A stretch of 35,769 nt of DNA from Desulforhopalus sp. (GCA_013139415.1 WTAT01000020.1:1-35769), one strand, 5' to 3'; shown: positions 3,907-32,606, numbered from the stretch's first letter. The notes: generated by a model from the letters alone, not told the origin. Numbers and translations: made by a program.

Positions 3907-5493
3907 CTACTGCTTATAACGTTCGTCCTGTTCAGCTTTGATATCCTTCATAACGTCAGCATCAAAACCTTCTTTATACCAGGTATGCTCAGGTCTGGAA
4001 AGAATTGCACCCAATTCCTTCTCGTATTTCTCGGTCATGCCTTTTTCTTCTGCCATATGCATAAGCTCAGGGATGAACTTGAAATAGAAGTTATGAGCGA
4101 CATCATACATTCCATGCCAATGGGTATAGTCAGGTCCACTCATTGCAGCACCGTGACGCGCTCGACGTCCTTCATGATGCCAGAGCTCCCACCAATGCCA
4201 CCCAAGCTCGGTGTGAAAAGTTGAACCACTAATGAGACCATCTTTCGCGGCCATTTCATACAATTTTTTAGCCGGCTTTGCGAACTTATCGTTATAGGTT
4301 ACAACCAGTGCATCAAACTGCTTATAAAAAGATTGCACCTTCTGCTCACCATGACACTGTTTACAGACGCCTTGCATGTTTTTGCGGCGCTCTTCCCAGC
4401 TTACGACAGCAATAGCCTCTTTTACAACCGGAACTTTTTTCCATTTATCGTCGACAAACTTGAATTCTTTATACTTCACTTCAGAACCAGCCTGGGGAGG
4501 AATATCACCTGGTATATCTTTTTCGGTACCATCGGCAAATATTACCCTGTTGAGCTTGGAAGAGATCTTTGGTCTCAGAGTCCAGGAAAGCCTGTCACCA
4601 ACATTATGGGTACTCTGGCTGACAGAACCATCGGACTTTTGATACGATCCCATATGGCAGGTAGCACAGGTCGGCGCGGTATAGTAGTCTTTACCCAAGA
4701 CCCATTTGCCGGCTTTCATGATGTTCATACCGTTCATGCCATACTCCCGGGAAGCGGAATAATAAGCAATGCCATGTTTAGACTCGTTATAAATCTCCAT
4801 CTGCGGATGATCCGGGCCAAGGTGGCACTTGCCGCAATTCTCAGGTTGACGGGCGGTTGAAGCACGGAAACTATGCTTGCTGTGACAGGCATTACAGGTC
4901 CCTGCATATCCATCGGGGTTGAGACGACCAACGCCGGAGTTTGGATAGGTCATCGGATCAAACATTACCGCTCCGAATTCATTTTTTAGCGTTTTTCCGT
5001 CTGCACCGGTCTGAACGGTTAACAGAGATCCATGACATTGCCAGCAGCCATTTGCAGCATCGGCTTTGTCTTCCAGAGAACAGATGACCTCACCCAGAAC
5101 ATTGTCTAGAGACGCCATGATCTGACCGGCAGCAGCGTGATGCGAGTTCTGCTGCTCTTTCATTTCCCCTTCATGACAAAACCCACAATCCTTTGGAGTC
5201 TGGATTGTTTTGATAAAAGCACCCTCATGCATATAGGCAGTAATGTCACCTTGATCAGCTGCATGACAGTTGTAACAGGATACTGAGCCATCTTTTCCTG
5301 CTGCGTGTGGAGAATTTTTCCATTGCTGCACTAATGAATTGTTCTCTTTGAGATGGCAGTTCACACATTTTACGTTTGCTTGCTTGTTCTTCTCGTTGGT
5401 CACATCCATGGAAGCTTTTGTCGTGGCAAACGCTGGGACCGCGATAAAAAGTCCCAGAATTGCCATGCAAAGTATTTTACCCCACTGTTGCAT
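3907..5493 (-). CDS. Octaheme c-type cytochrome of the hydroxylamine oxidoreductase (HAO) family
   Basis: Eight CXXCH motifs (CVNCH, CYNCH, CGFCH, CWQCH, CNACH, CGKCH, CATCH, CKQCH); HAO-like blocks YYSASREYGMNGMNIMKAGKWVLGKDYYTAPTCATCHMGS and THNVGDRLSWTLRPKIS; signal peptide. Start 5493 chosen for GGAGG spacing (ORF opens at 5541). Confidence 0.88.
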   Translation of the reverse strand: MQQWGKILCMAILGLFIAVPAFATTKASMDVTNEKNKQANVKCVNCHLKENNSLVQQWKNSPHAAGKDGSVSCYNCHAADQGDITAYMHEGAFIKTIQTPKDCGFCHEGEMKEQQNSHHAAAGQIMASLDNVLGEVICSLEDKADAANGCWQCHGSLLTVQTGADGKTLKNEFGAVMFDPMTYPNSGVGRLNPDGYAGTCNACHSKHSFRASTARQPENCGKCHLGPDHPQMEIYNESKHGIAYYSASREYGMNGMNIMKAGKWVLGKDYYTAPTCATCHMGSYQKSDGSVSQSTHNVGDRLSWTLRPKISSKLNRVIFADGTEKDIPGDIPPQAGSEVKYKEFKFVDDKWKKVPVVKEAIAVVSWEERRKNMQGVCKQCHGEQKVQSFYKQFDALVVTYNDKFAKPAKKLYEMAAKDGLISGSTFHTELGWHWWELWHHEGRRARHGAAMSGPDYTHWHGMYDVAHNFYFKFIPELMHMAEEKGMTEKYEKELGAILSRPEHTWYKEGFDADVMKDIKAEQDERYKQ

Positions 5494-5658
5494 ATTCATT
5501 TCCTCCGAATGAAATTTAAAATCCTCGTTTGCCGGAAACACCGACGCTCCAAATCCTTAAAATCCTTACAGACAGCCTCTTTGTTCACCCTCCTTGCATC
5601 CTCCTCGTATAGGATTCATCTTCATAGCAGTTAAGCGTTCAAACAATATACCGGTAAA

Positions 5659-6861
5659 TCAATCCACCGATGAATCGGCGACCTTTTCACTCATCCAGAA
5701 CGGGAAAATCTTCCCGAGAACATATAAAATCACCAGCGGGGCAATCATGATGCAGAGAGCGGCAATAATGCCCTCTCTTCCGAGCCACTCTGGTATAAAC
5801 ACCACCTGCCCCCTGGTGCTATTGGACATCAACTGACCACCTATGACGACATTCCAACGCATAAGCAAAACCTGTACAAGTATCATCAGAGAGGCGATCG
5901 GGGCAAAAAACAGAATGACCCGATCCTTGAATTTAAACAGACAGAGTGCGGCCAGCAGGAAAAAGGGGATGACGGAAAAAATCTTCACCTGATACAACCA
6001 ATAGGTGTTGTAAAGCGGTCCCCAGAGCAGATTCTCCAGGACATGCCAGTGGTGGGTGCTCATATAGAAATGGCTGAACACCTCAAGCATTTCAAAGACG
6101 AAATCGAGAATAAAAAAGCCCCAAAGAAATTTGAGTGCAGTTCGAATGCAGTCAACATCGATTTGCTGACCGGTAAATTTTTTGATTAAAAAATAGGCCA
6201 AAATGATCCCGGCAATTCCCGAGACACAGGCGGAAAGTAAAAAAATCACCGGCATGAGCGGGGTGGCCCAAAGCGGATTAGCCTTGACTCCACCAAAGAT
6301 AAAGCCAACATAACCGTGCAGGACACAGGCCATTGGGATACCAATCGCCGCTAAAAAATTAATTATTTTATGATCAAGCTGCAGTGACTCTTTGGAGAGG
6401 TTGTCATTATGGAAGGCAAGAAAGCGATACAGCCACTGTATTTTTCCAGAAGAACTCTTCCACAATCCGACCATCGTCGGTCGGTAGATAAACAAAATTT
6501 CATGGAGCAACAGGATAAAATAAGCAGAGTAGATATAGCCAAACCCGGCCATGGCTGAGGTTGGATTAGGCGTCAGCAACATACTAAAGGATCGTTCCGG
6601 ATGGCCAAGATGGAGAAGAAGCGGCCAGGTGGCACAAGCCAGAAAAGCAAGCGCAAAGACCAGTGAAAACCGGGAAATAGGCTCTAGCTGTTTTATGCCG
6701 AATACGTGATAGAGTGATGAGACGATAAAGGCTCCGGCCACAATCCCTGTAATATAAGGATAGAGGACAATCATCAAGCTCCAATGCACATGAAAATCAT
6801 TGGGAAACACATAGTTGGTCAAAGCTGAAATGGCGTCACCATGATGTATTGCTGTGCTCAT
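5659..6861 (-). CDS. NrfD/PsrC-family polytopic quinol dehydrogenase membrane subunit
   Basis: Multiple TM helices and LHLGHPERSFSMLLTPNPTSAM block typical of NrfD; start overlaps the stop of the upstream Fe-S gene (TAATG). Confidence 0.85.
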   Translation of the reverse strand: MSTAIHHGDAISALTNYVFPNDFHVHWSLMIVLYPYITGIVAGAFIVSSLYHVFGIKQLEPISRFSLVFALAFLACATWPLLLHLGHPERSFSMLLTPNPTSAMAGFGYIYSAYFILLLHEILFIYRPTMVGLWKSSSGKIQWLYRFLAFHNDNLSKESLQLDHKIINFLAAIGIPMACVLHGYVGFIFGGVKANPLWATPLMPVIFLLSACVSGIAGIILAYFLIKKFTGQQIDVDCIRTALKFLWGFFILDFVFEMLEVFSHFYMSTHHWHVLENLLWGPLYNTYWLYQVKIFSVIPFFLLAALCLFKFKDRVILFFAPIASLMILVQVLLMRWNVVIGGQLMSNSTRGQVVFIPEWLGREGIIAALCIMIAPLVILYVLGKIFPFWMSEKVADSSVD

Positions 6862-7655
6862 TAGACCACCTCCCTTCGCAGCCCGACATAATGCAGGGCG
6901 GGTTTGTTACCCATATCAGGCTTCAATACGGAAATTACGTGGGGTTCATGGAGAATTTTCCAGACCTCGGAATTCTTATCAGCAAGATCACCAAACTTAC
7001 GGGCGTGGGTCGGGCAGACTTCAACGCATGCGGGCAACAGTCCCTTTCTCACCCGGTGGTAACACCAGGTACATTTTTCCGCGGTTCTGGTTATGGGATT
7101 AATAAAACGCACAGAATAGGGACAGGCCTGTATACAATAGGAGCAGCCAACGCAGCGGGTTTTATCAACCAGAATAAAGCCGTCATCGGTTTTATAAGTC
7201 GCTCCAACCGGGCAAACCTGGACGCAGGAAGGTTTTTCGCACATATTACAGAGCTTGGGGACAAAGAAGGTATCCCGGGTAGGGTTCGGGAGTCCATCAC
7301 GGGCCTTAGTATACCCATCCAGCCCACCGTTAGGCGAGTCGACATAGACATTATCGTGGTCGTCGATAATATATCGCTCGACCCAGGTTCGGTAATTGTG
7401 ATCAGGGACATTATATTCCGCCTTATCTGCAATACAGCAGGAACCGCAGCCGATACAGGCGGTGATATCGACCACAAAGGCAAATCGTTTATGGGTAAAG
7501 ACGCTGTCATCGCCTCGCATGCCGGGTATCTGCTCGATAAGTTCCTCGGCTGTTGCAGGTATAACGAGAAGCAGCGAACCGGCAATTGTACCACCGAGGA
7601 CCTTCTTGATGAAGCCGCGGCGGTCCTGCTCTATTTGTTTTTTAAGTTCTTTCAT
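6861..7655 (-). CDS. NrfC-like periplasmic 4Fe-4S ferredoxin-type subunit
   Basis: Twin-arginine-like DRRGFIKKVLGG; cysteine clusters CIGCGSCC, CNMCEKPSCVQVCP, CVGCSYCIQACP, CTWC..CVEVCP. ORF opens at 7706, but the start at 7655 avoids overlap with the upstream gene. Confidence 0.88.
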   Translation of the reverse strand: MKELKKQIEQDRRGFIKKVLGGTIAGSLLLVIPATAEELIEQIPGMRGDDSVFTHKRFAFVVDITACIGCGSCCIADKAEYNVPDHNYRTWVERYIIDDHDNVYVDSPNGGLDGYTKARDGLPNPTRDTFFVPKLCNMCEKPSCVQVCPVGATYKTDDGFILVDKTRCVGCSYCIQACPYSVRFINPITRTAEKCTWCYHRVRKGLLPACVEVCPTHARKFGDLADKNSEVWKILHEPHVISVLKPDMGNKPALHYVGLRREVV

Positions 7656-7657
7656 CG

Positions 7658-8203
7658 TTATATTGCCTCCTTTATACCAATCATTTCCTTTGCCTGATTG
7701 ATCCAAAGAAGCGGATCATGGACCATGTGGCATTGACTACAGGTATGATCAATCCGAACATTTTTCTCTTGTAGATGTTGGGGCATGCCTACCATTTTGA
7801 TCGATTCCCGGGGACGGGCCTGGATGATCTGGTTATGACAACGCAGACAGAGTGGGATGATCTCCTGTCCGCGCTTTACGGGTAGGGTACCTATTTTTTT
7901 ACCATTCTCAACATGGTCTCCATAGGGGCCGTGACAGATTTCGCATGAAACCGTCTTATGAACACCTGCTTTATGAATTCTGCGGATAGGTTTATGACAT
8001 TGAAAACAGGACTCATTTGTCTGAAGCCTTACGGCAATATTTTTTTGATCTTCAATATCAGCTCCCCGATAATGGCCATACTGCCCCATGCTCTCAGGTG
8101 TAAAAACCTTCCGTGCAATTAATGCGGCAACTCCGAAAACGACCAGAGCGATAATCAGCTTGATCAAATGAGAGTTGTATTTCGATCTTGACTCCGTTTG
8201 CAC
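7658..8203 (-). CDS. Membrane-anchored tetraheme c-type cytochrome
   Basis: One N-terminal TM helix, then CFQCH, CEICH, CLRCH, CSQCH. Directly upstream of the NrfC-like gene. Confidence 0.8.
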   Translation of the reverse strand: MQTESRSKYNSHLIKLIIALVVFGVAALIARKVFTPESMGQYGHYRGADIEDQKNIAVRLQTNESCFQCHKPIRRIHKAGVHKTVSCEICHGPYGDHVENGKKIGTLPVKRGQEIIPLCLRCHNQIIQARPRESIKMVGMPQHLQEKNVRIDHTCSQCHMVHDPLLWINQAKEMIGIKEAI

Positions 8204-8307
8204 TTAAGACCTCCTTAGTTGTACCTGATTGACGAGACCAGCTCCGCCAAGTCCAGGCTATTAGTTTCCACTTTTCCTCATTCGCAACATATCATTCCTC
8301 ATCACTT

Positions 8308-8323
8308 TGCAAATTTGATTCCA
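8308..8323 (-). promoter_or_regulatory. Sigma54 (-24/-12) promoter of the hao operon
   Basis: Minus strand TGGAATCAAATTTGCA: GG-N10-GC spacing, TTTGCA -12 box; about 105 nt upstream of the tetraheme start codon. Confidence 0.7.
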
Positions 8324-8374
8324 TAAAAACAGGATTGTCTTTTCAGGTAATTACCCACTTCAAAACACAAGATC

Positions 8375-8390
8375 GCTACCAAACGGTAAC
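8375..8390. promoter_or_regulatory. Palindrome GCTACC-AAAC-GGTAAC, proximal activator site
   Basis: 6-4-6 dyad, 53 bp from the -24 GG of the hao promoter; matches dyads at 8407, 13728 and 13760. Confidence 0.7.
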
Positions 8391-8406
8391 ATCGACAAGA
8401 GGGCAT

Positions 8407-8422
8407 GTTACCGAAAGGTAAC
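8407..8422. promoter_or_regulatory. Palindrome GTTACC-GAAA-GGTAAC, distal activator site
   Basis: Perfect 6-4-6 dyad, 32 bp from the neighbouring dyad and 85 bp from the -24 GG. Confidence 0.75.
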
Positions 8423-8492
8423 ACTGCCTTCTTTTTGTAAATGCGATAAAATTTGCAACTAAGCTTTCAAAACAGCAAAGGTAACTTCAAGG

Positions 8493-8616
8493 AACCCCGG
8501 TAAATGGAAAAATAAGCCAGGATAAGTGCCTTGGAAGTAACTTTAGGTTTATAATTTCAATTTCCCTTTCAGATTTCTTATTTTTTTTTACAGAAAATCT
8601 GGAGTAAGGCACTAAA
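8493..8616 (+). repeat. Dispersed repeat family A (AACCCCGGTAAAYGG...TAAGGCACTAA), copy 1
   Basis: aaccccggtaaatggaaaaataagccaggataagtgcctt ... ggagtaaggcactaaa; closely matches the copy at 25880. Confidence 0.85.
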
Positions 8617-8634
8617 TTGGTACAAGACAGATAG

Positions 8635-9465
8635 CTATTTTTCTTGCCAATGAAAGTGCAGGGCATCGAAACAGCAGCTGTCCACACACTCGCCACAGTT
8701 CCAACAGTAGGCAGATGTTCCTTCACCAATGCTCGGCAAAAGTCCCATAGGACAGCTTTTCTCACAAATGCCACAATTGGTGCAATTGGCTTGATCAACA
8801 TGCACCCGAAGACTCCTTTTACTACCCAGGAAGGCGAGCAGCCCACCAAGTGGACAGAAAGTCCTGCAAAAGAACCTGCGGGTGGACAATTCCAGCAAAA
8901 GAATCAGCAGAAGTATTACCCCTTCCAAGGCAACTGATTGGAAAAATACCAACATCATTATTTCCCGGCCGATCAGGCCCGGAGGAGAGAGAAAAACAAA
9001 AAGTGGTACTCCGAGAATCATACTGAGTAAGAGTTCTGCAATCAGGACAAACCAGAGTATTTTTTTGGCGACGAGTAGACCGTTTTTTAGAAATTTTCGG
9101 CCCGTGACAAGCTTCCTCAGCTTGTCAAAAAGCTCGAGGAAAAAAGACACCGGGCATACCCAGGAACAAAACACCCTGCCGAGGAAAAGAGCAATTAAAA
9201 CCGGGATCGCCATGCCAATAAACGATGGCATATACACCGACTTGGTCAACAGCAGACTTTCCAGTCCTTCCAGTGGTGAAACAAACCAGAGACTGCCAAA
9301 ACCAAAAGACTGGTACCAGCCTTGAATGAAATTAATATGGTAAAAGTAGTTCAGAAAGGGATTAACTAAAATGAGCAGAAAGGCTCCGGTGAGCAGAATA
9401 AGTCGCCATCGCCCATAGACTATCTTCGGGGTGGAGATAAGACGGGTACTGTCAGCCCTTTTCAC
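8635..9465 (-). CDS. napH: NapH-like quinol dehydrogenase membrane component (polyferredoxin)
   Basis: TM helices, FCSWVCPVSF and FCRTFCPLGG motifs, C-terminal CTNCGICEKSCP and CWNCGECVDSC; overlaps napG by 4 nt. Confidence 0.85.
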   Translation of the reverse strand: MKRADSTRLISTPKIVYGRWRLILLTGAFLLILVNPFLNYFYHINFIQGWYQSFGFGSLWFVSPLEGLESLLLTKSVYMPSFIGMAIPVLIALFLGRVFCSWVCPVSFFLELFDKLRKLVTGRKFLKNGLLVAKKILWFVLIAELLLSMILGVPLFVFLSPPGLIGREIMMLVFFQSVALEGVILLLILLLELSTRRFFCRTFCPLGGLLAFLGSKRSLRVHVDQANCTNCGICEKSCPMGLLPSIGEGTSAYCWNCGECVDSCCFDALHFHWQEK

Positions 9466-10070
9466 GCCGTCACCTTTTCTCCCGCATAGAGCGGTTCAAT
9501 ATTAATCGCCTTATTGCCACCGGGCACGGTGACCGGACAAGCGTTGGTACAAAGACCGCAACCAGTACAGGAGGACTCGTCAATCACCGGTCGCAGTTGA
9601 TCAAGACGGATTGCCTTTTCGGCATAGGGGCATTTATCGTAACAGGTTCGGCACAGAATAGTCCCGATCCATGCGGCACAATGAAATCGATTGATAACCG
9701 CAAGGCCCATGCGGGTATCCTGCTGCCGAATGCGTTGCAGGCTTCCGGTGGGACAGACATCGACACATTTCATACAGAGGTAGCAGGGAATTTTTTCCGC
9801 TTCAACGAGTGGGGTCCCGGCATGAATCCCGGCACGGATATCGAGCATGATAATCGAGCGATACGGACAGACTTCAACACAACGTCCACACCTGATACAT
9901 TTACCTGGAAAAATCTCTTCGGGTACCGCCCCTGGAGGCCGTAACCTGTTAGTTGTAACTGGTGATTGTGCAACGGGTGATTGCAAAAATCTTGCTCCGG
10001 CAGTTCCGGGAAGAAGGGATAGGCTGGTGAGGCTCGCTCCGAGTAACTTGATAAATGAGCGTCTTTTCAC
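9462..10070 (-). CDS. napG: NapG-like ferredoxin-type protein
   Basis: RRSFIKLLGASLTSL twin-arginine-like leader; four cysteine clusters (CIRCGRCVEVCP, CYLCMKCVDVCP, CRTCYDKCP, CTGCGLCTNACP). Confidence 0.85.
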   Translation of the reverse strand: MKRRSFIKLLGASLTSLSLLPGTAGARFLQSPVAQSPVTTNRLRPPGAVPEEIFPGKCIRCGRCVEVCPYRSIIMLDIRAGIHAGTPLVEAEKIPCYLCMKCVDVCPTGSLQRIRQQDTRMGLAVINRFHCAAWIGTILCRTCYDKCPYAEKAIRLDQLRPVIDESSCTGCGLCTNACPVTVPGGNKAINIEPLYAGEKVTA

Positions 10071-10372
10071 GAATTGTCACTTAATGGCTTTCGAAAACCG
10101 AATGGTTTTGCCAACTTTTCCCCTTGGACCATGCGCTCAGCTTCATCTTCGGTATTCAGATAGGTCAGGCCGACATGCAGGACGTTTTGGTCCTTGCTGA
10201 TCCGATCAATAATTTTCTCCATTTCTTCGGATGATTCTGTCTCCAATACGGCAACAATGTTGCCTTTTTCATCATCACCGTGAACTTCAACCTCGGCGAT
10301 GGCAGATAAACATCGTAAAACTTCTTTTTTTTCTGCAGGTCGACTGGTTATGACTACGCCACTAATCGGCAT
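10067..10372 (-). CDS. napD: NapD-like chaperone for NapA
   Basis: Starts MPISGVVITSRP, typical of NapD; small; located between napA and napG. ORF opens at 10432 but 10372 is the natural start. Confidence 0.75.
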   Translation of the reverse strand: MPISGVVITSRPAEKKEVLRCLSAIAEVEVHGDDEKGNIVAVLETESSEEMEKIIDRISKDQNVLHVGLTYLNTEDEAERMVQGEKLAKPFGFRKPLSDNS

Positions 10373-10436
10373 GGTTACTCCCGTAAAAGTTTCAGGTATA
10401 CTTGAGAGCCTCCAAAAAATGGCGACTCTCAAGCAT

Positions 10437-10527
10437 GATGGCGTCGTAAAAAGTCTCCTGCTCCGTCATTCCCGCGTAGGCGGGAATGACGGTAAATTAG
10501 CAAAATATAGTTTTTACGAAGCCATCA
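10437..10527. repeat. Inverted-repeat element, family B (TGATGGCGTCGTAAAAA...TTTTTACGAAGCCATCA)
   Basis: 17-bp terminal arms matching 16/17, enclosing the perfect hairpin CCGTCATTCCCGCGTAGGCGGGAATGACGG. Confidence 0.85.
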
Positions 10528-10552
10528 AGCGTACTATTGATCTGGATCAGGA

Positions 10553-12955
10553 TCAGACAATATAAGGCTTGAGCGGCTTTGGACCAGAGGCCCGTTTTAC
10601 CTGAACTGCACAGATTTTAAATTCCGGTTCTTTCGAGCCCGGATCATAGGCATCTTTTGTTACTTTATTGATCATTCGATCAGGGTGCTGGTCATGCCAG
10701 TAGGCAAAAACCATTCCTTCAACCGGTCCTTCATAGACCTTCGCAGGCAGCAGATTGACACCGCGTCGTGACTTTATTTCCACCATGTCTCCCGGTTTAA
10801 TACCAAGTCGCTCCGCATCTTTTGGGTTAAGCTCTACATACGCGTAAGGATTGGCCCGGAGTAATTCAGGAATACGGCCGGTCATCGACATGGTATGCCA
10901 ATGGTCGATAATCCTGCCGGTAGACAAATAGAAAGGATAGTCAGCATCCGGAATCTCTTCCGGATCCGCCTGCTCACGCTGCCAGATCCACAAAGTACGA
11001 TCGGCATGTGCCGGACCATAGAACTGATAGGGTAGATCATTTTTGGATTCTGTGGTTGCCATCGGATCCCTTCCTTTGACAAATTTTTTCACTGTACCAC
11101 CGGTAAGGGCATATTCCTCTGTCAGTGCCGGCCACTGAACCCCGTCAGCCATTTGCTCCAGCACAGCATAGGTTGCACCGCGAAGATCATTGTCCCTATG
11201 AGCGGTCAGTTTCTGGGAATACTCGTCCCAGATAGCCTTGGGTAACTCATACCCCTCATCCAGGCCCTCAAAGGGTTTAATGCACTGGGCAATAACCGGA
11301 TCTTTCATTTTCTCGGCCAGCTTACGTGCCCACTCCCGGACGATCCAGACCTCGGCCCTTGCTTCACCCGGCGAATCGATGGCCTTTTTCGTCAACTGGG
11401 ACCGACGCTCCGTGCAGCCATAAACCCCGGTTTTTTCAAAATGAAAGGAGGTCGGCAATACCAGATTGGCCTTCTGGGTGGTGAGGGTATGAAAAATATC
11501 GGTACAGACAATAAAAACGTCCTCCCTGTCCATACCTTTATTGTAGAGATTGCAGTTTGGCAGACTCTGTACAGGGCTGGTGCAGTTGACCCAAATTGCT
11601 TTGATCTTTCCTTCGTTTATCGCTGAAAACATGGCCATGGTGTGCAGGCCGGGTTTGGGTGGGATACGCCCCTCTGGTACTCCCCAGGCTGCCTCCACCT
11701 GGCGACGAAGTTTTTCTTTTGCTACCAGTCGGTGACCAGGCAGGATATGACAAAGACCTCCGCCTTCACGGACACCGCCACAGGCGTTGGGTTGACCGGT
11801 GAGACTAAGACTGTCAGCACCGTCTTTTAGTAATTGGCCGGTAAGGATATGCAGATTATGCACGAGATTATTAGCCCAAACGCCCCGCTTTCGTTGATTG
11901 AGCCCCATAGTCCAGAGACTGACTGTGCCTTTAGAAGTAGCAAACCAACGAGCTATGGTTCTTACATCATCGGGTTTAAAGGAGCCACCACATACCTTTG
12001 CAGCCTCTTCAGGAGTGTACTTAGCTAACTGCGCCTTGAAATCTTCCAGAGTCGTCTGCTCCGCTTTTCCTTTTCTAAACGTCGCGTAATTCTTTATGAA
12101 CTCTTCGTCGTAGAGTTTTTCTTCCAGGATGACATGGGCCATGGCATTGAGCAGCGCCAGATCAGTTCCCGGCTTGAACTGCAGATGTATATCGGCAATT
12201 CTTGAGGTCTGGGAAATTCTGGGATCAACGTTAATCACCTTGACTGTATCAGGATTATCGAGTTTCCGGCGCATGATTCTTCGAAAAAGAACCGGATGGG
12301 CTTCAGCGGTATTAGAACCGATAATAAAGAAACAATGGGCCTTCTCCAGATCGGCATAGCCACCAATGGGCTCATCAGCCCCAAATGACGTAAGATACCC
12401 ACCGACCGCACTGGCCATGCAGAGCCGGGGATTACCTTCAACATTATTTGACTGCAGGCCGCCTCGCATAATTTTCTGGAATAAGTAGGTTTCCTCAGTC
12501 AGCGCCTGGCCTGAGCCATAATAGGCTACGGCTTGCCCACCGCCGGCCTTATGCGCCTCTGCAAATTGACTGGCAGCTATATCAAGAGCTTTGTCCCAGG
12601 ATATTTCTCTAAATTTGTCAGTTTTCTTCTCGCGATACAGCGGTTTGGTTAAACGGTCAGGATGGCGCATACATTTCCAGAAGTGCATGCCCTTCATGCA
12701 GACATAGCCAAAATTAGTGCGAGACTCTGCAACACCACGCAGCCCCATAGGCACGCCATCTTTTACCCCAAGTTCAACCCGGCAACCGACACCGCACAGG
12801 CGACAACTGCCCCGATGCCATGCTATACCTTCATCAGCCCGAGCCACATTAACTTTATCAATAGGCAGACTCATACTTACATAGGAGGCCGCCGATAGTG
12901 CCGCCGCCTTTTTTATAAAATCACGTCTCGTTTGTGCCATTATGGTTTGTGTCAT
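10553..12955 (-). CDS. napA: Periplasmic nitrate reductase catalytic subunit NapA (Mo-bisMGD)
   Basis: Tat leader TRRDFIKKAA; 4Fe-4S motif CRLCGVGC..CMKG; Mo-ligand region EGNPRLCMASAVGGY; C-terminal molybdopterin-binding motifs; flanked by napM/D/G/H. Confidence 0.9.
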   Translation of the reverse strand: MTQTIMAQTRRDFIKKAAALSAASYVSMSLPIDKVNVARADEGIAWHRGSCRLCGVGCRVELGVKDGVPMGLRGVAESRTNFGYVCMKGMHFWKCMRHPDRLTKPLYREKKTDKFREISWDKALDIAASQFAEAHKAGGGQAVAYYGSGQALTEETYLFQKIMRGGLQSNNVEGNPRLCMASAVGGYLTSFGADEPIGGYADLEKAHCFFIIGSNTAEAHPVLFRRIMRRKLDNPDTVKVINVDPRISQTSRIADIHLQFKPGTDLALLNAMAHVILEEKLYDEEFIKNYATFRKGKAEQTTLEDFKAQLAKYTPEEAAKVCGGSFKPDDVRTIARWFATSKGTVSLWTMGLNQRKRGVWANNLVHNLHILTGQLLKDGADSLSLTGQPNACGGVREGGGLCHILPGHRLVAKEKLRRQVEAAWGVPEGRIPPKPGLHTMAMFSAINEGKIKAIWVNCTSPVQSLPNCNLYNKGMDREDVFIVCTDIFHTLTTQKANLVLPTSFHFEKTGVYGCTERRSQLTKKAIDSPGEARAEVWIVREWARKLAEKMKDPVIAQCIKPFEGLDEGYELPKAIWDEYSQKLTAHRDNDLRGATYAVLEQMADGVQWPALTEEYALTGGTVKKFVKGRDPMATTESKNDLPYQFYGPAHADRTLWIWQREQADPEEIPDADYPFYLSTGRIIDHWHTMSMTGRIPELLRANPYAYVELNPKDAERLGIKPGDMVEIKSRRGVNLLPAKVYEGPVEGMVFAYWHDQHPDRMINKVTKDAYDPGSKEPEFKICAVQVKRASGPKPLKPYIV

Positions 12956-12999
12956 TATGATCTCCTTCCTCTCTGTCGGTTCAACAGCTTAGCTAATAT

Positions 13000-13377
13000 C
13001 TATTTCTTTTCTTTGAACGAATGAGGTACATGACACTCCCAACATGGTTTGTCTTTGGGACATTTCTCGAGCATGTTGTTATGACAGGTGGCACAGTTCT
13101 GCCTGCTGGGTGTCACAAAAAAATCTCCGTAGGTACCATGACACTGGTAACATTTTACCATGGCAATTCCGTGGAGCGAGTCATACCACTGTTTCTCAAT
13201 CTCCGGAGTTGCTTCCCGATGGCAATCGGCACAGCCCACCAGCATCTCCTGCTCCGACAGATCCGGATGCACAGCTTTACCTTTGTCACCTGCCACCACC
13301 GTCACTGACAGCATTACGATCCCCAAGATGGCCAGTGCAAAACCCGCAAAATGGACTCTTCTCTGTTTGTTCACCAT
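13000..13377 (-). CDS. napM: Tetraheme cytochrome c, NapM-like
   Basis: Signal peptide plus CADCH, CYQCH, CATCH, CWECH; first gene of the nap operon, as in the Desulfovibrio desulfuricans napCMADGH arrangement. Confidence 0.75.
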   Translation of the reverse strand: MVNKQRRVHFAGFALAILGIVMLSVTVVAGDKGKAVHPDLSEQEMLVGCADCHREATPEIEKQWYDSLHGIAMVKCYQCHGTYGDFFVTPSRQNCATCHNNMLEKCPKDKPCWECHVPHSFKEKK

Positions 13378-13398
13378 GTGCCTCCCTTTAAGGTTTTT

Positions 13399-13536
13399 TT
13401 AGTACCTCAGAAATTCTTTGCTTGTTTTTCAACCCTCAAAGGGTGTAGAAAAAAGGTGAAAAAAATTTGCTGAAGGTACTTATACCCCCGAGGGGGTATT
13501 ATAAAGAATCCCGATTCATTCCCCGTTTATCGGGGT
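13399..13536 (-). repeat. Dispersed repeat family A, copy 2 (inside the nap leader)
   Basis: ttagtacctcag...tacccccgagggggta...ccccgtttatcggggtt; reverse orientation of the copies at 8493 and 25880. Confidence 0.75.
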
Positions 13537-13660
13537 TACCCATCTATTATCTCTCTCAAATTATCTCTCTCAACCGACACAGAGCGATCTATGCTTCTGT
13601 TTCCTGAATGAAACCGGTAATTAAGACAGAATTCTACATTTCAACCTATCGAATCAACGA

Positions 13661-13676
13661 TGCAAGCTCTGTTCCA
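13661..13676 (-). promoter_or_regulatory. Sigma54 (-24/-12) promoter of the nap operon
   Basis: Minus strand TGGAACAGAGCTTGCA: GG-N10-GC with TTGCA. Confidence 0.7.
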
Positions 13677-13727
13677 GTAACATGTTACATATATTTCAAG
13701 GGGTTAACGTTCGCACCACCGACAACC

Positions 13728-13743
13728 GTTACCGTGAGGTAAC
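13728..13743. promoter_or_regulatory. Palindrome GTTACC-GTGA-GGTAAC
   Basis: Perfect 6-4-6 dyad, 53 bp from the -24 GG of the nap promoter. Confidence 0.75.
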
Positions 13744-13759
13744 ATATACCCGTCCTCAC

Positions 13760-13775
13760 GCTACCTGACGGTAAC
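13760..13775. promoter_or_regulatory. Palindrome GCTACC-TGAC-GGTAAC
   Basis: 6-4-6 dyad, 32 bp from the neighbouring dyad and 85 bp from the nap -24 GG. Confidence 0.7.
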
Positions 13776-13901: not shown

Positions 13902-13917
13902 TGGAGCGAATATTGCT
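13902..13917 (+). promoter_or_regulatory. Sigma54 (-24/-12) promoter facing the sensor kinase gene
   Basis: TGGAGCGAATATTGCT: GG-N10-GC with TTGCT; about 85 nt upstream of the ATG at 14003. Confidence 0.6.
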
Positions 13918-14002: not shown

Positions 14003-15565
14003 ATGAATTGGCATTTTCCTGCACAAATCTCATTACGAACCAAATTTATCATTTTCATTGGGGCGATTATTTCGGCATTTTATTTATTTATGCTCTATCG
14101 CACCTCCGCATTTGATGAAAAAATGATCATCAAACAAGCAGAACAGCAGGCTCGCATGCTGTTCAAACAGATTCTTCTCACCAGGCAATGGGCAGCTGAT
14201 CATAATGGCTTGTTTGTCCTTAAAAAAAGGGGAATAGAGGCCAACCCCTACCTTGATTTACCAACAGTGACAGACGCCCAGGGACACATCTATTTTCTGC
14301 GCAACCCGGCGATGATCACCCGCGAACTCTCTTCCTACGCCAAACGTGACGGCCTTGGTTATTTTCGAGTGACCAGTCTCAAACCAATAAATCCTCAAAA
14401 CATTCCAGATGAGTTTGAAAAATCGTCCCTGATGGCCTTTGCCCAGGGTGCCAAGGAAGTAATTGATGTCGATGTGTCGGATATGGGTCGAGTGGTCCGT
14501 TTCATCGCCCCTTTGCGAGTAACCGATTCATGTCTTGGCTGTCATGCCCCACACGGATACAGCGAGGGCGACATTCGAGGAGGTCTTTCCATCAGCATAC
14601 CCATTAGTTGGGCTGATGATCTCATCAGAAGAAACATCCACAATCTTATTCTGATAGGTGTTGCGAGTATTTTTTTTGTTACAGTGGCTCTCTTTCTTAT
14701 GTTCGAAACACTGATTGTGCATCGTATAAGACGGTTGACCCAGGCCATGCATAATTTCCCTGATGATCCTCCGGATAAGTTCCTGCTGCCTTCCATATTC
14801 AGAGATGAACTGGACAGTGTAAATGATAACTTTGTACTCTTCTGTGATCGGTTGAAAAGGTCTCGGGAGGAACTCTTAAAAACAAAGGCGCAGGCTCATT
14901 TGAGCGAAAAAATGGCCTCACTGGGCATCCTCTCTGCCGGGATAGCCCATGAAGTAAACAATCCGCTGGGGGGAATGCTCAACTGCGTGAAGTCTATGCG
15001 TGAAAATCCCGATGATCGTGAGCAGACCGAGCGTTATCTCCCCCTACTGGACAAGGGACTGAGACAGATTGAAATGATCATGCGCCAACTGCTCAATTTC
15101 GGCAGAACTGAGCCATTGAAAGCAAGAAAGATAGATCTCCATGTTCTTTTTAGCGAATGCACCCAGCTTCTCTCCTACAAGCTCAACAATATAGAGTTCA
15201 ACACCAACATCTCAGTCTCAACCGAGCATCTGGTGGATTCGGAAGCAGTCAAGCAAATCATTATCAACATTGGCTTGAATGCCATCCAGGCCATGCAGAA
15301 AGGAGGAAAGCTCACCATTGAATGCCGGGAACATGGCGATGAACTGATTTTAATCTTTCAAGACACGGGGCTTGGCATCGCAGAAGAAAACATGCCCCAT
15401 ATCTTCGACCCCTTCTTCACCACTAAAGGAGTCGGGGAAGGAACCGGTCTCGGTCTTGCGGTCACTTACTCGCTGGTTCAACGTATGCATGGGAAAATAT
15501 CTGTGGACAGCAGCCACGGTGAGGGAACTATTTTCACCATTACTATTCCGACCAACAGGGAGTAA
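14003..15565 (+). CDS. Sensor histidine kinase with periplasmic DUF3365/Tll0287-like domain carrying a c-type heme motif
   Basis: Two TM segments flanking a domain with [28 protein letters not shown] (CXXCH); His[24 protein letters not shown]1 and G2 boxes. ORF opens at 13787, but [17 protein letters not shown] at 14003 is the likely start. Confidence 0.88.
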
Positions 15566-15774: not shown

Positions 15775-17106
15775 ATGCCCAAAATCCTGCTCGCCGAAGA
15801 TGACGAAATAATGCGGGTTTCCATATACGACTGTCTAAAAAAACACGGCTGGCAGGTAGATGAAGCAAAAGACGGCCTTGAGGCCATGGCGCTGTTCGAA
15901 AAAAACCAGTATCACCTGATAATATCCGACATTCGTATGCCAGGCCTCGATGGTTTAACACTCCTCCAGAATGTGCGCAGGCAGAGCCCTGACACCGACG
16001 TGATTATTATGACTGCCTATGGCTCGGTGAACGATGCCATTGACTGTCTGCGCAGGGGGGCAAGCGATTATATACTCAAACCGTTTGACCTGGACGATCT
16101 TATCATTCGGGTCACACGTCTTTTTGAAACCCAGGCGGTCAAAGCAAAATGTGAAGTTCTTGAGGCCACATGCCAGAAAGACCGCAAACTGTTCGGGAAA
16201 TCATCAGCGATGCAGAAGGTCCATTCGCTGATTGAACAGGCGGCACCCACCAATGCAACTATCCTTATCACCGGAGAATCAGGAACCGGCAAAGAGCTTG
16301 CGGCACGGGCAATTCATAAAGCCAGCAACCGGCATGATAAGCCATTTGTTTCAATCAACTGTGCAGCCATACCAGACGGGCTGATGGAATCCGAGCTTTT
16401 CGGCCATGAAAGGGGCGCTTTTACCGGAGCCGACCAAAAAAGAAAAGGGAAATTCGAACTCGCCGATAACGGTACCCTGCTCCTGGATGAATTAGGAGAC
16501 CTTCCCGGACCACTCCAGGCAAAACTGCTCCGAGTTCTTCAGGAAAGTCGGTTTGAAAGGGTTGGCGGCAGCAAGAGTATTAATGTGGATGTCCGTATCA
16601 TTGCCTGTACATCCAAAAATCTACAAGAAGAAGTGACGGCCGGAAATTTTCGCCAGGATCTTCTCTACCGGCTCCAGGTTATCCCACTGAAAATGCCGCC
16701 ACTGAGGGAACATAAAGAAGATATCGAAGAACTCTGCCGGGTATTTCTGTCTGAATTTAATACCTTGCATGGCAGGTCCGCGGCAATCACGGCTGAGGCA
16801 ATAAACTGTCTCAACCAGTACGATTTCCCCGGAAACGCTCGCGAATTGAGAAACTTGATGGAGAGGGCATCCGTTCTCAGTCGGGGGCCGGAGATCACCC
16901 CTGCTGATCTTCCCACTGAGCTTAATCAACACTCAACACAACAGGAATCAAATTTCAATCTCAGTGACCAACTGGCAATTGTCGAACAGAATTGTCTTCA
17001 GAATGCCCTCGTCCACAGCGGTGGTAACCGTACCGAAGCCGCGCGTCTTCTCGGAATAAGCAGGAAGAATCTATGGGAAAAACTCAAGTCTTACGGCCTG
17101 CAATGA
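15775..17106 (+). CDS. NtrC-type sigma54-dependent response regulator
   Basis: Receiver ([20 protein letters not shown]), AAA+ [21 protein letters not shown] loop, C-terminal Fis-type HTH ([27 protein letters not shown]). Confidence 0.95.
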
Positions 17107-21333: not shown

Positions 21334-21424
21334 TTCGACAATGCGACACAATGCGAAACTACAGTTAAACTTTAGCCTACAGCTTGCTACGGGCCATAAT
21401 TTTTAAATATTGGGAGAACACAAA

Positions 21425-22651
21425 ATGCGAATACACAGACGACAATTTTTGAAATACTGCGTTGGATCAGCCGCAGCGCTGGGCCTGCCAATGACAGTTC
21501 TTGGTAAGCTAGAAGTGGCTCTTGCTGCTAACACCTCCACTTTGCCCAAGGTTATCTGGCTCAACGCAGCCAACTGCACAGGTTGCACCATCTCACTTTC
21601 TAACCTGTTTAGCGACAGCGGTCCGACGGATATCGCCGACCTATTGTTCAATACTATTGACCTTGTTTTTCATCCCACCCTCATGAGCGCAGCCGGGGAC
21701 CTCGCCGTGCAACAACTGAAAACCACAGCTGAGGGGAGCTATATACTGGCTGTTGAAGGTGGAATCCCGACTGCATTTGGCGGGCACACCTGCATGCTTT
21801 GGAGTGAAGGTGGCAGGGACGTGACTGCAATGGAAGCTGTACAAATGCTGGCTCCAAACGCTGCGGCCATCTTAAGTATAGGAACTTGTGCCAGTCACGG
21901 TGGGATTCCTGCTGCAAGCCCGAACCCGACAGGTATCGTCAGTGTCGGTGAACTCACCGGTTTAGATACTGTTAATATACCAGGCTGTCCTACTCATCCC
22001 GATTGGATCGTTTGGACCGTGGCCCACCTGCTTGCCGGTGAAATGCCACAGCTTGATAGCCGTCGCCGTCCAATAGAACTTTATGGCACCGAGATTCATA
22101 AAAACTGTCCTCGCAAGGGACAGGGTGAAGCCAAGACCTTCGGCATCGAAGACAAGTGCCTTAAAGAACTTGGCTGTAAGGGGCCCAAGACAAAGTCGGA
22201 TTGTCCGTCTCGTAAATGGAATAATGGCAGCAATTGGTGTATTGGAGCCGGAGCGATATGTATTGGTTGCACTGAACGAGATTTCCCTGACAAGTTTTCG
22301 CCTTTTTACAAACTGCAATACGAGTACAAAGATTTCCAGAAACCAGTTACCGAAGACCCTAACAGTAGTTCCCCCGAGCCGGAACCCACCACCGGTTACC
22401 TTGAGTTCACCAGGGTTGAATGGCAAGAGGACAGGTCCAGGATCGAAGTTAAGGGTAAAGGGGATATTGGCCAAATCGTCAGTGTCTACGATGGGGATTC
22501 CAACACCCAGCTAGGCGCCGTCACCGTAGACAGGGGCGGCAAATGGAGAGTTCGCCAAAATAATCCATCCCCAATTCCTCACAGAGTAAAGGCAACATCC
22601 GGGAACCAGACAGTTTATAGTGCTGTAGCCAACGTGCCGGTAATGGCCTGA
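21425..22651 (+). CDS. Periplasmic [NiFe] hydrogenase small subunit with C-terminal Ig-like extension
   Basis: Tat leader RRQFLKYCVGSAAALGLP; NCTGCTISL, GTCASHGG, IPGCPTHPDW, CLKELGCKGP, NWCIGAGAICIGCTE cluster ligands; about 90-residue beta-rich tail YLEFTRVEWQEDRSRIEVKGKGDIGQIVSVYDGDSNTQLGAVTVDRGGKWRVRQ... Confidence 0.92.
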   Translation: MRIHRRQFLKYCVGSAAALGLPMTVLGKLEVALAANTSTLPKVIWLNAANCTGCTISLSNLFSDSGPTDIADLLFNTIDLVFHPTLMSAAGDLAVQQLKTTAEGSYILAVEGGIPTAFGGHTCMLWSEGGRDVTAMEAVQMLAPNAAAILSIGTCASHGGIPAASPNPTGIVSVGELTGLDTVNIPGCPTHPDWIVWTVAHLLAGEMPQLDSRRRPIELYGTEIHKNCPRKGQGEAKTFGIEDKCLKELGCKGPKTKSDCPSRKWNNGSNWCIGAGAICIGCTERDFPDKFSPFYKLQYEYKDFQKPVTEDPNSSSPEPEPTTGYLEFTRVEWQEDRSRIEVKGKGDIGQIVSVYDGDSNTQLGAVTVDRGGKWRVRQNNPSPIPHRVKATSGNQTVYSAVANVPVMA

Positions 22652-22707
22652 TCACCCTGAATTGTAAAGAATTCAGGATCTGTCAACAGGCGCATAAAAT
22701 TAAGATA

Positions 22708-22797
22708 TTAGTGCCTTACTCCAGATTTCTTGTTTTTTATACCCCTCAAGGGGGTACTGAAAAGAGTCCTGGCTTAATTTCCCGTTTACCGGGGTTA
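22708..22797 (-). repeat. Dispersed repeat family A, copy 5 (between hydrogenase subunit genes)
   Basis: ttagtgccttactcca...tacccctcaagggggta...ggcttaatttcccgtttaccggggtta, reverse orientation. Confidence 0.88.
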
Positions 22798-22829
22798 GTT
22801 GAAAGAACGTACACTTTTGGAGATATAGA

Positions 22830-24254
22830 ATGAAAACAATTACCGTCATGGATCCGGTTACTCGGATTGAAGGTCATATGAAGGTCGAAATAGCCATTGA
22901 TACCAACGGCGGACAGCAACAGATCGTCAATGCACATTGTACCGGAACACTTTTTCGCGGCTTTGAGAACCTTTTAAACGGGCGAAGTCCCCTTGACGCG
23001 CCTATTATCACCCAGCGCATATGTGGCGTTTGCCCCATATCCCACGGGCAGGCTGCAGTGCAGGCTCTGGAAAATGTATCCAACTGGCTGCCGCCAACAA
23101 ATGCACGATTGTTACGCAACCTGACACTGGGAGCCAACTTTCTGCAATCACATATCCTCCATTTTTACCTGCTGGCGGCTCTCGATTATGTTGCCGGACC
23201 AGCTGCCTCGCCATGGGCGACTGCATGGCAAACGGATATGCGTCCAGGTCTTGACAGCGTGGCAGCAAATCTTCCCGCCGCGATAGGCGCCCGCCGCCAG
23301 GCCCACGAAATGGGTGCGGTGTTTGCGGGTAGAATGCCAAGCACCAACAGCTATATCCCCGGTGGATTCACTGCCATTCCCACTGCTAGTGATATCAGCC
23401 GCTATAAACAACACCTCGCTGAGCTCACCCAGTTCATCAACAAAGTTTATCTGCCTGATGTTCAGCAGGTCGGGGACGTCTACAGTGATTATTTCAAGGT
23501 TGGTCGCGGCAGCGGCAATTTGCTCGCTTATGGCGCATTCGAGATGGATGATACCAATAGTTCCCGTTTGTTTTCCGGTGGCTACGCCGAAAGCGGCGCA
23601 GAAAATATTCAGGACAGTGTGAACACCAACGACATCACCGAATCTGTCAAATATTCCTGGTATGCAGATGCGACCGGCAGTCTAACGCCGGCTTCAGGAG
23701 AAACACGGCCTGAATTCCCGAAAGAAGGTGCCTACTCGTGGCTCAAGGCCCCCCGACTGAAGGATAAACCATATGAAGCCGGCCCTCTGGCTCGAATGTG
23801 GATCAACGGTGATTATAGTCGTGGTATTTCGGTCATGGATCGACATGTAGCCCGGGCACTGGAGGCGAAAAAGATCGCTGCAGCCATGGGTGGCTGGCTG
23901 GACGAATTGAATTCCGGGCAAAACGGGTTCGACGAGAACTACGAACAGTTCTCCGGATTCGGCGTAGCATTAACTGAAGCTCCCCGCGGCGCTCTTGGTC
24001 ATTGGGTGGAAATAACCCAAGGGAAAATTTCCCACTACCAGGTGATTACACCTACCTGCTGGAACGCATCTCCCCGTGATAATAATGATGTCGGCGGACC
24101 GATGGAAACTGCCTTAATCGGCACCCCGATAGAAAACCCCGATGAGCCGGTAGAAGCCCTCCGTGTCATCCACGCATATGACCCCTGTTTGTCCTGTGCT
24201 GTGCATATTTTACGCCCGGACAAAAAACCAATTGTCGTCCACACCGGCAAATAA
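22830..24254 (+). CDS. [NiFe] hydrogenase large subunit
   Basis: RICGVCPISHGQAA (L1) and DPCLSCAVH (L2) active-site motifs, with a 15-residue C-terminal tail after His for protease cleavage. Confidence 0.95.
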   Translation: MKTITVMDPVTRIEGHMKVEIAIDTNGGQQQIVNAHCTGTLFRGFENLLNGRSPLDAPIITQRICGVCPISHGQAAVQALENVSNWLPPTNARLLRNLTLGANFLQSHILHFYLLAALDYVAGPAASPWATAWQTDMRPGLDSVAANLPAAIGARRQAHEMGAVFAGRMPSTNSYIPGGFTAIPTASDISRYKQHLAELTQFINKVYLPDVQQVGDVYSDYFKVGRGSGNLLAYGAFEMDDTNSSRLFSGGYAESGAENIQDSVNTNDITESVKYSWYADATGSLTPASGETRPEFPKEGAYSWLKAPRLKDKPYEAGPLARMWINGDYSRGISVMDRHVARALEAKKIAAAMGGWLDELNSGQNGFDENYEQFSGFGVALTEAPRGALGHWVEITQGKISHYQVITPTCWNASPRDNNDVGGPMETALIGTPIENPDEPVEALRVIHAYDPCLSCAVHILRPDKKPIVVHTGK

Positions 24255-24327
24255 TAAATTTCAGTCGGCCACGCTAACCATTTAATGGTAGACACCAACG
24301 TAGCAAAAACAATTTTGAGTAGGGTAA

Positions 24328-24768
24328 ATGCAAACACTTATTCTCGGAATCGGTAATGAACTTTTGGGAGACGAAGGGGTTGGGGTACATGCAGCCCGCC
24401 TTCTTCGTGAAGAAAGCTTACCAAAACAGACAAAGATATTAGAGGTCGGTACCGCTATCCTAGACGCCCTGCCAGACCTGGAACAGGCAGATCGAGTAAT
24501 TATACTCGACGCCATGAAAGACGACCAACCTCCGGGGACAGTTTACAAGATATCCTTGGATCACTGTAGCGGTACATCATGCATCGCCTCAATGCACGGT
24601 TTTGATATTTTCCGTGTACTGGCCCTTGCCGGGCGCAGCACCCCCCCGCCGGTTATGGTCTTCGGGGTGGAACCGCAAGAGATCGGCTGGTCACTTGAGC
24701 TCTCAGCTTCGGTAGCCAAATCCATGCCATACCTGCTTGACGCGGTACGAGCGGAGTTGATGAACTAG
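24328..24768 (+). CDS. Hydrogenase maturation endopeptidase (HyaD/HybD family)
   Basis: LILGIGNELLGDEGVGVHAAR..LEVGTAILDALPDLEQADRVIILDAM motifs; follows the large subunit. Confidence 0.92.
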   Translation: MQTLILGIGNELLGDEGVGVHAARLLREESLPKQTKILEVGTAILDALPDLEQADRVIILDAMKDDQPPGTVYKISLDHCSGTSCIASMHGFDIFRVLALAGRSTPPPVMVFGVEPQEIGWSLELSASVAKSMPYLLDAVRAELMN

Positions 24769-32279: not shown

Positions 32280-32430
32280 CGAATAGCTCCATTCACCTCA
32301 AATGGATGTCTCCCCACACTGCCGTGTCACCAGGAAAGTTAAACCTATAAAATAGGTGGGTAGCCTCATAATAACCTCAGCAAATTCGATAAACGATTTT
32401 CCTTTAACTATCAGTGGAGTCACCCTTTTT
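32280..32430 (-). ncRNA. Candidate 6S RNA (ssrS)-like structured RNA
   Basis: Intergenic between zapA and rny, a common position of 6S RNA; local hairpins CCTATTTTATAGG and TCCATTtgaggtgAATGGA. The closing stem was not resolved by eye. Confidence 0.35.
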
Positions 32431-32606
32431 TTGGGAGTTGGCTCAACACACACTGAAGATCACCAACAGTGCAGGGAAAACTCTTGTTTCTAATATATTC
32501 AAGTAAAACTTTATAGATGTCGTTAGTACAGTTTTTAAGGATTTTCACCCTTTACAGAATTATAACAGACTTTCCAGTAAACGAAAACAAATTATACCTG
32601 CAGACA

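Follow-up and report, generated by a model that had tools for sequence, protein, structure and literature searches.

Two strong NtrC sites, spaced 32 bp apart, serve the glnAp2 promoter of Escherichia coli. Tandem sites for NtrC dimers upstream of a sigma54 promoter are described there (PMC4740811), and in Desulfovibrio, a sulfate-reducing lineage, the two-component system NrfS-NrfR (signal nitrite; targets nrfHA and nap) is a sigma54 activator of nitrite and nitrate reductases (PMC5701242, PMC12285233). At the orp2 promoter of D. vulgaris (DVU2106, integration host factor (IHF), sigma54), experiments have placed the activator at -88, IHF at -43 and the sigma54 box at -11 (PMC3897727). The kind of system made up of NtrC-type activators, tandem dyads, IHF and sigma54 is therefore already known. 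Here we analyse 35,769 nucleotides of the sulfate-reducer-type genome of Desulforhopalus sp. (GCA_013139415.1 WTAT01000020.1:1-35769), a stretch that we call the window, carrying a periplasmic nitrate reductase operon (nap), an operon for a cytochrome, NrfCD and an octaheme HAO-family protein (hao), and genes for a sensor kinase and an NtrC-type regulator. With a probability of about 0.9, the regions upstream of hao and nap would be promoters that depend on sigma54 and belong to a single regulon, one for dissimilatory nitrate reduction to ammonium.

Promoter elements shared by the hao and nap operons

The elements of the two promoters are as follows.

8308..8323, minus strand: sigma54 -24/-12 element (GG-N10-GC) of the cyt-NrfCD-HAO operon, TGGAATCAAATTTGCA
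8341..8353, minus strand: IHF-like site of the hao promoter, TAATTACCTGAAA, 17 bp upstream of TGG, exact match to YAANNNNYTGAWW
8375..8390, no strand: proximal dyad (predicted activator site) of the hao operon, GCTACCAAACGGTAAC
8407..8422, no strand: distal dyad of the hao operon, GTTACCGAAAGGTAAC
13661..13676, minus strand: sigma54 -24/-12 element (GG-N10-GC) of the nap operon, TGGAACAGAGCTTGCA
13694..13706, minus strand: IHF-like site of the nap promoter, TAACCCCTTGAAA, 17 bp upstream of TGG, exact match
13728..13743, no strand: proximal dyad of the nap operon, GTTACCGTGAGGTAAC
13760..13775, no strand: distal dyad of the nap operon, GCTACCTGACGGTAAC

The dyads form two GYTACC-N4-GGTAAC pairs, 8375/8407 for hao and 13728/13760 for nap, whose members start 32 bp, or roughly three turns of the helix, apart, and in both promoters their near edges lie 53 and 85 bp from the first G of the -24 element (8322 for hao and 13675 for nap). 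An earlier reading made from the sequence alone (the sequence-only reading) had proposed these pairs, these distances and the minus-strand GG-N10-GC elements, and all of them hold to the base. It had also allowed that such dyads might prove numerous across the genome; perfect matches to GYTACC-N4-GGTARC in the whole assembly (4.5 Mb, 637 contigs) are four, the window dyads themselves. Since a search of the window at up to two mismatches gave 17 matches, versus 2.6 +/- 1.5 in shuffled sequence, and only four exact sites occur genome-wide, a chance origin of the dyads was rejected. The genome encodes rpoN (PF04552, 200.6 bits).

The identical 32/53/85 spacing in both copies is also what a recent segmental duplication within one genome would leave, with no regulon under selection. 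Against this, ungapped identity between the two promoters outside the three elements is 59/187 (32%), near the 27% expected from composition, in agreement with the earlier impression that the flanks are not duplicated; moreover, in relatives the flanks have diverged and the elements are kept, and the same unit precedes unrelated gene families. Given the divergence of the flanks, duplication was rejected, and we regard it as scarcely credible. Identity between the elements is higher (28/67, 42%), largely because of a fourth shared element that the sequence-only reading had not noticed, the IHF-like site, which lies in the same register in both promoters.

This fourth element is found well beyond the window. 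Among 71 promoters from the order to which Desulforhopalus belongs, 19 contain an exact copy of YAANNNNYTGAWW, which is the IHF consensus read as its reverse complement (0.5 in shuffles), and 44 contain a copy with no more than one mismatch (8 in shuffles); 41 of these 44 matches sit 17 or 18 bp upstream of TGG. Enrichment is restricted to one strand, the opposite orientation showing none in the 71 promoter spacers. At offsets of 17-18 bp a site within two mismatches is present in 57/71 promoters, compared with 32/355 at control offsets. IHF-alpha/beta-like genes are present in the genome.

Recurrence across the order

The geometry is tightly kept in relatives. A survey that allowed dyad spacings of 17-60 bp found 86 distinct pairs over all fetched loci, spaced by 32 bp (36 pairs), 33 bp (48) or 34 bp (2), the exact division between 32 and 33 bp being biased by the search because many loci had been fetched with 32- and 33-bp patterns; loci fetched by the kinase alone likewise showed no spacing other than 32-34 bp. 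A sigma54 element accompanies 64 of the 86 pairs, its first G lying 51-57 bp from the proximal dyad (mode 53). Among the first 40 pairs, 34 had such an element at 52-56 bp, against a chance expectation of 0.2% per pair, and the promoter element formed part of no search pattern used to collect the pairs. The 32-bp spacing that the sequence-only reading had reported is thus right for the window and does not stand as an invariant, 33 bp being the commoner value across the order (48 vs 36 of 86 pairs) and the promoter distance also varying (51-57 bp): 'base-exact' is true of the window, 'nearly fixed' of the order.

The genes behind these promoters form a coherent set. Sixty of the 64 complete promoters lead into nap, nrfA/nrfHA, NapC with an octaheme cytochrome, or a cyt-NrfCD-HAO operon; of the other four, two are cut short by contig ends, one reads towards a DoxX-family gene, and the last was attributed to the kinase side. 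The nap targets in relatives are NapM-NapA or NapD-NapA, and most NrfA, as well as the NrfH tested, score above curated cut-offs. In several genomes (L148, L151 and others) the switch, as we call this four-part unit of two dyads, IHF-like site and sigma54 element, precedes NrfA or NapC-octaheme genes in place of the NrfCD-HAO operon of the window; the nitrite reductase therefore differs under a conserved switch. That one switch precedes nitrite reductases of different kinds, depending on the lineage, argues strongly for a functional regulon.

The switch is almost confined to genomes that also carry the heme-sensor kinase and the NtrC-type regulator. A search for pairs spaced 32 bp with up to three mismatches matched 21 of 97 relatives, all 21 with the kinase, and a reversed control pattern gave no match in the same 97. 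In 243 genomes of the order (pair at 32 or 33 bp, up to two mismatches; regulator at E<=1e-135), 64 have both, 10 the pair only, 37 the regulator only and 132 neither (Fisher p=1e-21, phylogeny ignored), and three of the ten pair-only genomes (G008, G041, G082) contain truncated copies of the regulator or kinase. As a control against pair and regulator both merely tracking nitrate metabolism, we restricted the comparison to genomes with NrfA or window-type NapA: the pair is found in 46/67 with the regulator vs 2/49 without it (p=1.5e-13, again ignoring phylogeny).

Inspection of the nap/nrf loci of 20 further genomes pointed the same way. Four regulator-positive genomes scored as lacking the pair have degenerate pairs, spaced 33-34 bp with the sigma54 box at 55-56 bp, and G229, scored regulator-negative, has a split regulator copy; the remaining 15, all regulator-negative, have no pair at their nap/nrf genes. 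At 14 such loci the sigma54 box, too, is mostly missing from the 450 bp upstream. In G005 (L299), from the same genus and with a NapA 91% identical, regulator, dyads and sigma54 element are all absent, a case in which the entire switch was lost naturally. Pair matches outside the order (G312 and G468, 2/285 genomes of the phylum) look like background, being from the same genus and having two mismatches each, and the one examined (L186) has no nap, nrf or kinase nearby. Overall, the comparison shows that the dyad-dyad-IHF-promoter unit is found repeatedly ahead of nap, nrf and octaheme nitrite-reductase genes of the order and that its presence follows that of the regulator. The sequence-only reading had asked for co-occurrence with the kinase and regulator and had counted absence from regulator-carrying relatives against itself; what we find is the opposite of such absence, paired sites and sigma54 element recurring throughout the order.

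The dyads might nevertheless be sites of another regulator (HcpR, a NarL-type protein or another enhancer-binding protein), with the neighbouring NtrC-type regulator acting elsewhere. The fixed distance to the sigma54 box implies an enhancer-binding protein. NarL/NarP sites are TACYYMT heptamers in a 7-2-7 arrangement (TACY...RGTA over N8), a spacing that differs from the TACC-N4-GGTA of the dyads. The pairs adjoin the kinase gene in many loci, and their association with the window-type regulator persists when only genomes with nap or nrf are compared. Binding of the dyads by this regulator is something that we infer, and nap of D. desulfuricans is also under HcpR1, both of which leave room for another protein, but HcpR1 sites are TGTGA-N6-TCACA (PMC5701242), unlike the dyads. 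We consider this alternative very improbable, and the neighbouring regulator, the ligand suggested by the sequence-only reading, remains the favoured candidate, supported by its cosegregation with the dyad pairs.

Kinase, regulator and candidate signal

The genes of the two operons and of the two-component system are listed below.

3907..5541, minus strand: octaheme HAO-family cytochrome, probable nitrite/hydroxylamine reductase (PF13447; 8 CxxCH)
5659..6861, minus strand: NrfD-type quinol-interacting membrane protein (PF03916)
6861..7706, minus strand: NrfC-like 4Fe-4S protein
7658..8203, minus strand: tetraheme cytochrome c, first gene of the hao operon
8635..9465, minus strand: NapH ferredoxin-type membrane protein
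9462..10070, minus strand: NapG ferredoxin
10067..10432, minus strand: NapD (PF03927)
10553..12955, minus strand: NapA periplasmic nitrate reductase, divergent clade (best match PRK13532, 641.9 bits, below the equivalog cut-off of 904)
13000..13377, minus strand: napM-like cytochrome c, first gene of the nap operon
13902..13917, plus strand: candidate divergent sigma54 promoter of the kinase-regulator genes, TGGAGCGAATATTGCT
14006..15565, plus strand: sensor kinase, Tll0287/sCache_heme (PF11845, 8.1e-19, CLGCH) with HisKA (PF00512) and HATPase_c (PF02518)
15775..17106, plus strand: NtrC-type response regulator, with receiver (PF00072), sigma54-interaction AAA+ (PF00158, GAFTGA) and Fis-type HTH (PF02954)

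The nap operon reads napM-napA-napD-napG-napH, and the kinase and regulator genes are divergent from it. The kinase gene lies directly upstream of the regulator gene, an arrangement conserved in relatives, and probably starts at ATG 14006 rather than GTG 13787, because in most relatives the alignment to the longer open reading frame does not begin before about residue 61-82. Its heme domain has the CxxCH between predicted membrane segments, and no solved structure was matched by sequence to the sensor part. Most close relatives have elements similar to the candidate divergent promoter (TGG-GCGAA-ATTGC) between -56 and -112 relative to the kinase; a sigma54-like element facing the kinase in both the window and these relatives suggests autoregulation.

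In the proposed mechanism, the periplasmic c-heme domain of the kinase would sense a nitrogen-oxide signal, most likely nitric oxide (NO), or the heme redox state, and the kinase would phosphorylate the regulator. Two regulator dimers would then bind the dyads cooperatively and nucleate the AAA+ ring, with IHF bending the short spacer such that the ring meets sigma54-RNA polymerase. The nap and hao operons would be switched on together, with sigma54-dependent initiation predicted near 8297 and 13650, and the divergent element would probably let the kinase and regulator switch on their own genes.

NO would make a plausible cue, since such bacteria form it on the side when they reduce nitrite (PMC5701242). 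Within the Tll0287 family, a kinase-type protein has been reported to behave as an extracytoplasmic NO sensor, and slow NO dissociation with no stable oxy complex has been reported for a member other than the window kinase (PMC12889525, preprint). The sequence-only reading had proposed a dedicated nitrate/nitrite regulon; its targets bear this out (60/64 nap, nrf or octaheme), but the sensor of the kinase is a c-heme Cache domain whose family is reported to bind NO (PMC12889525), so neither nitrate nor nitrite has to be the signal. In a variant of the regulon reading, the kinase would sense nitrate or nitrite directly, or the heme redox state. We give this variant close to an even chance: the regulon consists almost purely of nitrate/nitrite reductases and members of the domain family that stand alone act as redox proteins, but the tested member fused to a signalling module bound NO tightly (PMC12889525). 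The fullest form of our proposal, in which an NO-sensing c-heme Cache kinase would drive a sigma54 regulon that amplifies itself and covers the entire route from nitrate to ammonium in the order, the rigid dyad-dyad-IHF-promoter unit being kept while the nitrite reductase is exchanged (NrfA, NapC-octaheme, NrfCD-HAO), is tentative, its odds falling somewhat short of even.

Several observations weigh against the regulon or its proposed signal. By the cut-off used, 22/86 pairs have no sigma54 element, several of them near contig ends or beside the kinase gene, and only some of the 37 regulator-positive genomes without a pair at up to two mismatches are explained by degenerate pairs. The Fisher p-values, as noted, take no account of phylogeny. 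At L174:5869-6600, a dyad pair and sigma54 element face the DoxX-family gene, the only target found outside nitrogen-oxide metabolism. Finally, the NO-sensor reading draws on a preprint about other family members.

Three further features of the window were observed. The predicted 5' leader of the nap mRNA (13378-13650, minus strand) is about 270 nucleotides long, with predicted stable hairpins (CCCCGATAAACGGGG; ATACCCCCTCGGGGGTAT), a folding z-score of -2.85 and no Rfam match. A 6S RNA (RF00013) lies at 32307-32480 on the minus strand, and a [NiFe] hydrogenase operon at 21410-24768 encodes a small subunit whose C terminus is extended by about 100 residues of Ig-like appearance.

Comparison with described systems

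No regulon with GTTACC/GGTAAC and sigma54, and no nitrate regulation in Desulfobulbales, was found described in the open-licence literature, and a regulon with the GYTACC-N4-GGTARC motif appears undescribed. If correct, it gives nitrate ammonification in sulfur-cycling bacteria a regulon and a binding motif that hold across an order; sigma54 control of the genes concerned has been described mainly in Desulfovibrio.

NrfSR of Desulfovibrio, which the sequence-only reading did not name, is a functional analogue with a different DNA motif. It belongs to the same architecture class and has the same targets, nap and nrf (PMC5701242, PMC12285233), and the system described here might be NrfSR under another name, an orthologous regulator with a shifted binding motif. 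However, NrfR shares the LurR-type 16-mer GTCC...GAC, and the very similar LurR sites are GTC(C/T)...GAC 16-mers (PMC6456213), in contrast to the dyad GYTACC-N4-GGTARC. Scanning with the consensus GTCY...RGAC, taken from the LurR sites printed in that paper, gave no match at either promoter and four in the window vs 7.4 by chance, and a LurR/NrfR-type motif at the window promoters was accordingly rejected. The targets also include octaheme HAO-type operons, unlike those of NrfSR. We therefore regard orthology with a shifted motif as unlikely.

With glnAp2 the promoters share tandem sites, but the NtrC box is TGCACCA-N3-TGGTGCA (PMC8743547), unlike the dyads. The glnAp2 enhancer also tolerates widely differing distances to its promoter, as much as 15 kb (PMC4641369), in contrast to the dyads of the window and its relatives, which keep to one distance give or take a few bp. 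The layout (activator at about -86, IHF at about -50, sigma54 at -12) is close to that of orp2, which has a different activator, signal and target and no tandem dyad of the window sequence. The roughly 70 promoters would form an unusually stereotyped natural set of sigma54 enhancers for studying the effects of geometry and IHF on activation.

The link to the sensor is the most interesting part. The window kinase shares with the sCache_heme (DUF3365/Tll0287) sensor family the PF11845 domain, with CxxCH between predicted membrane segments, and its fusion to a kinase (PMC12889525). The defining preprint makes no mention of nitrate, nitrite, operons or regulons and leaves the physiological outputs of the family undescribed, whereas for the member studied here we propose a target regulon, and with it predicted targets for this family of heme-Cache sensors.

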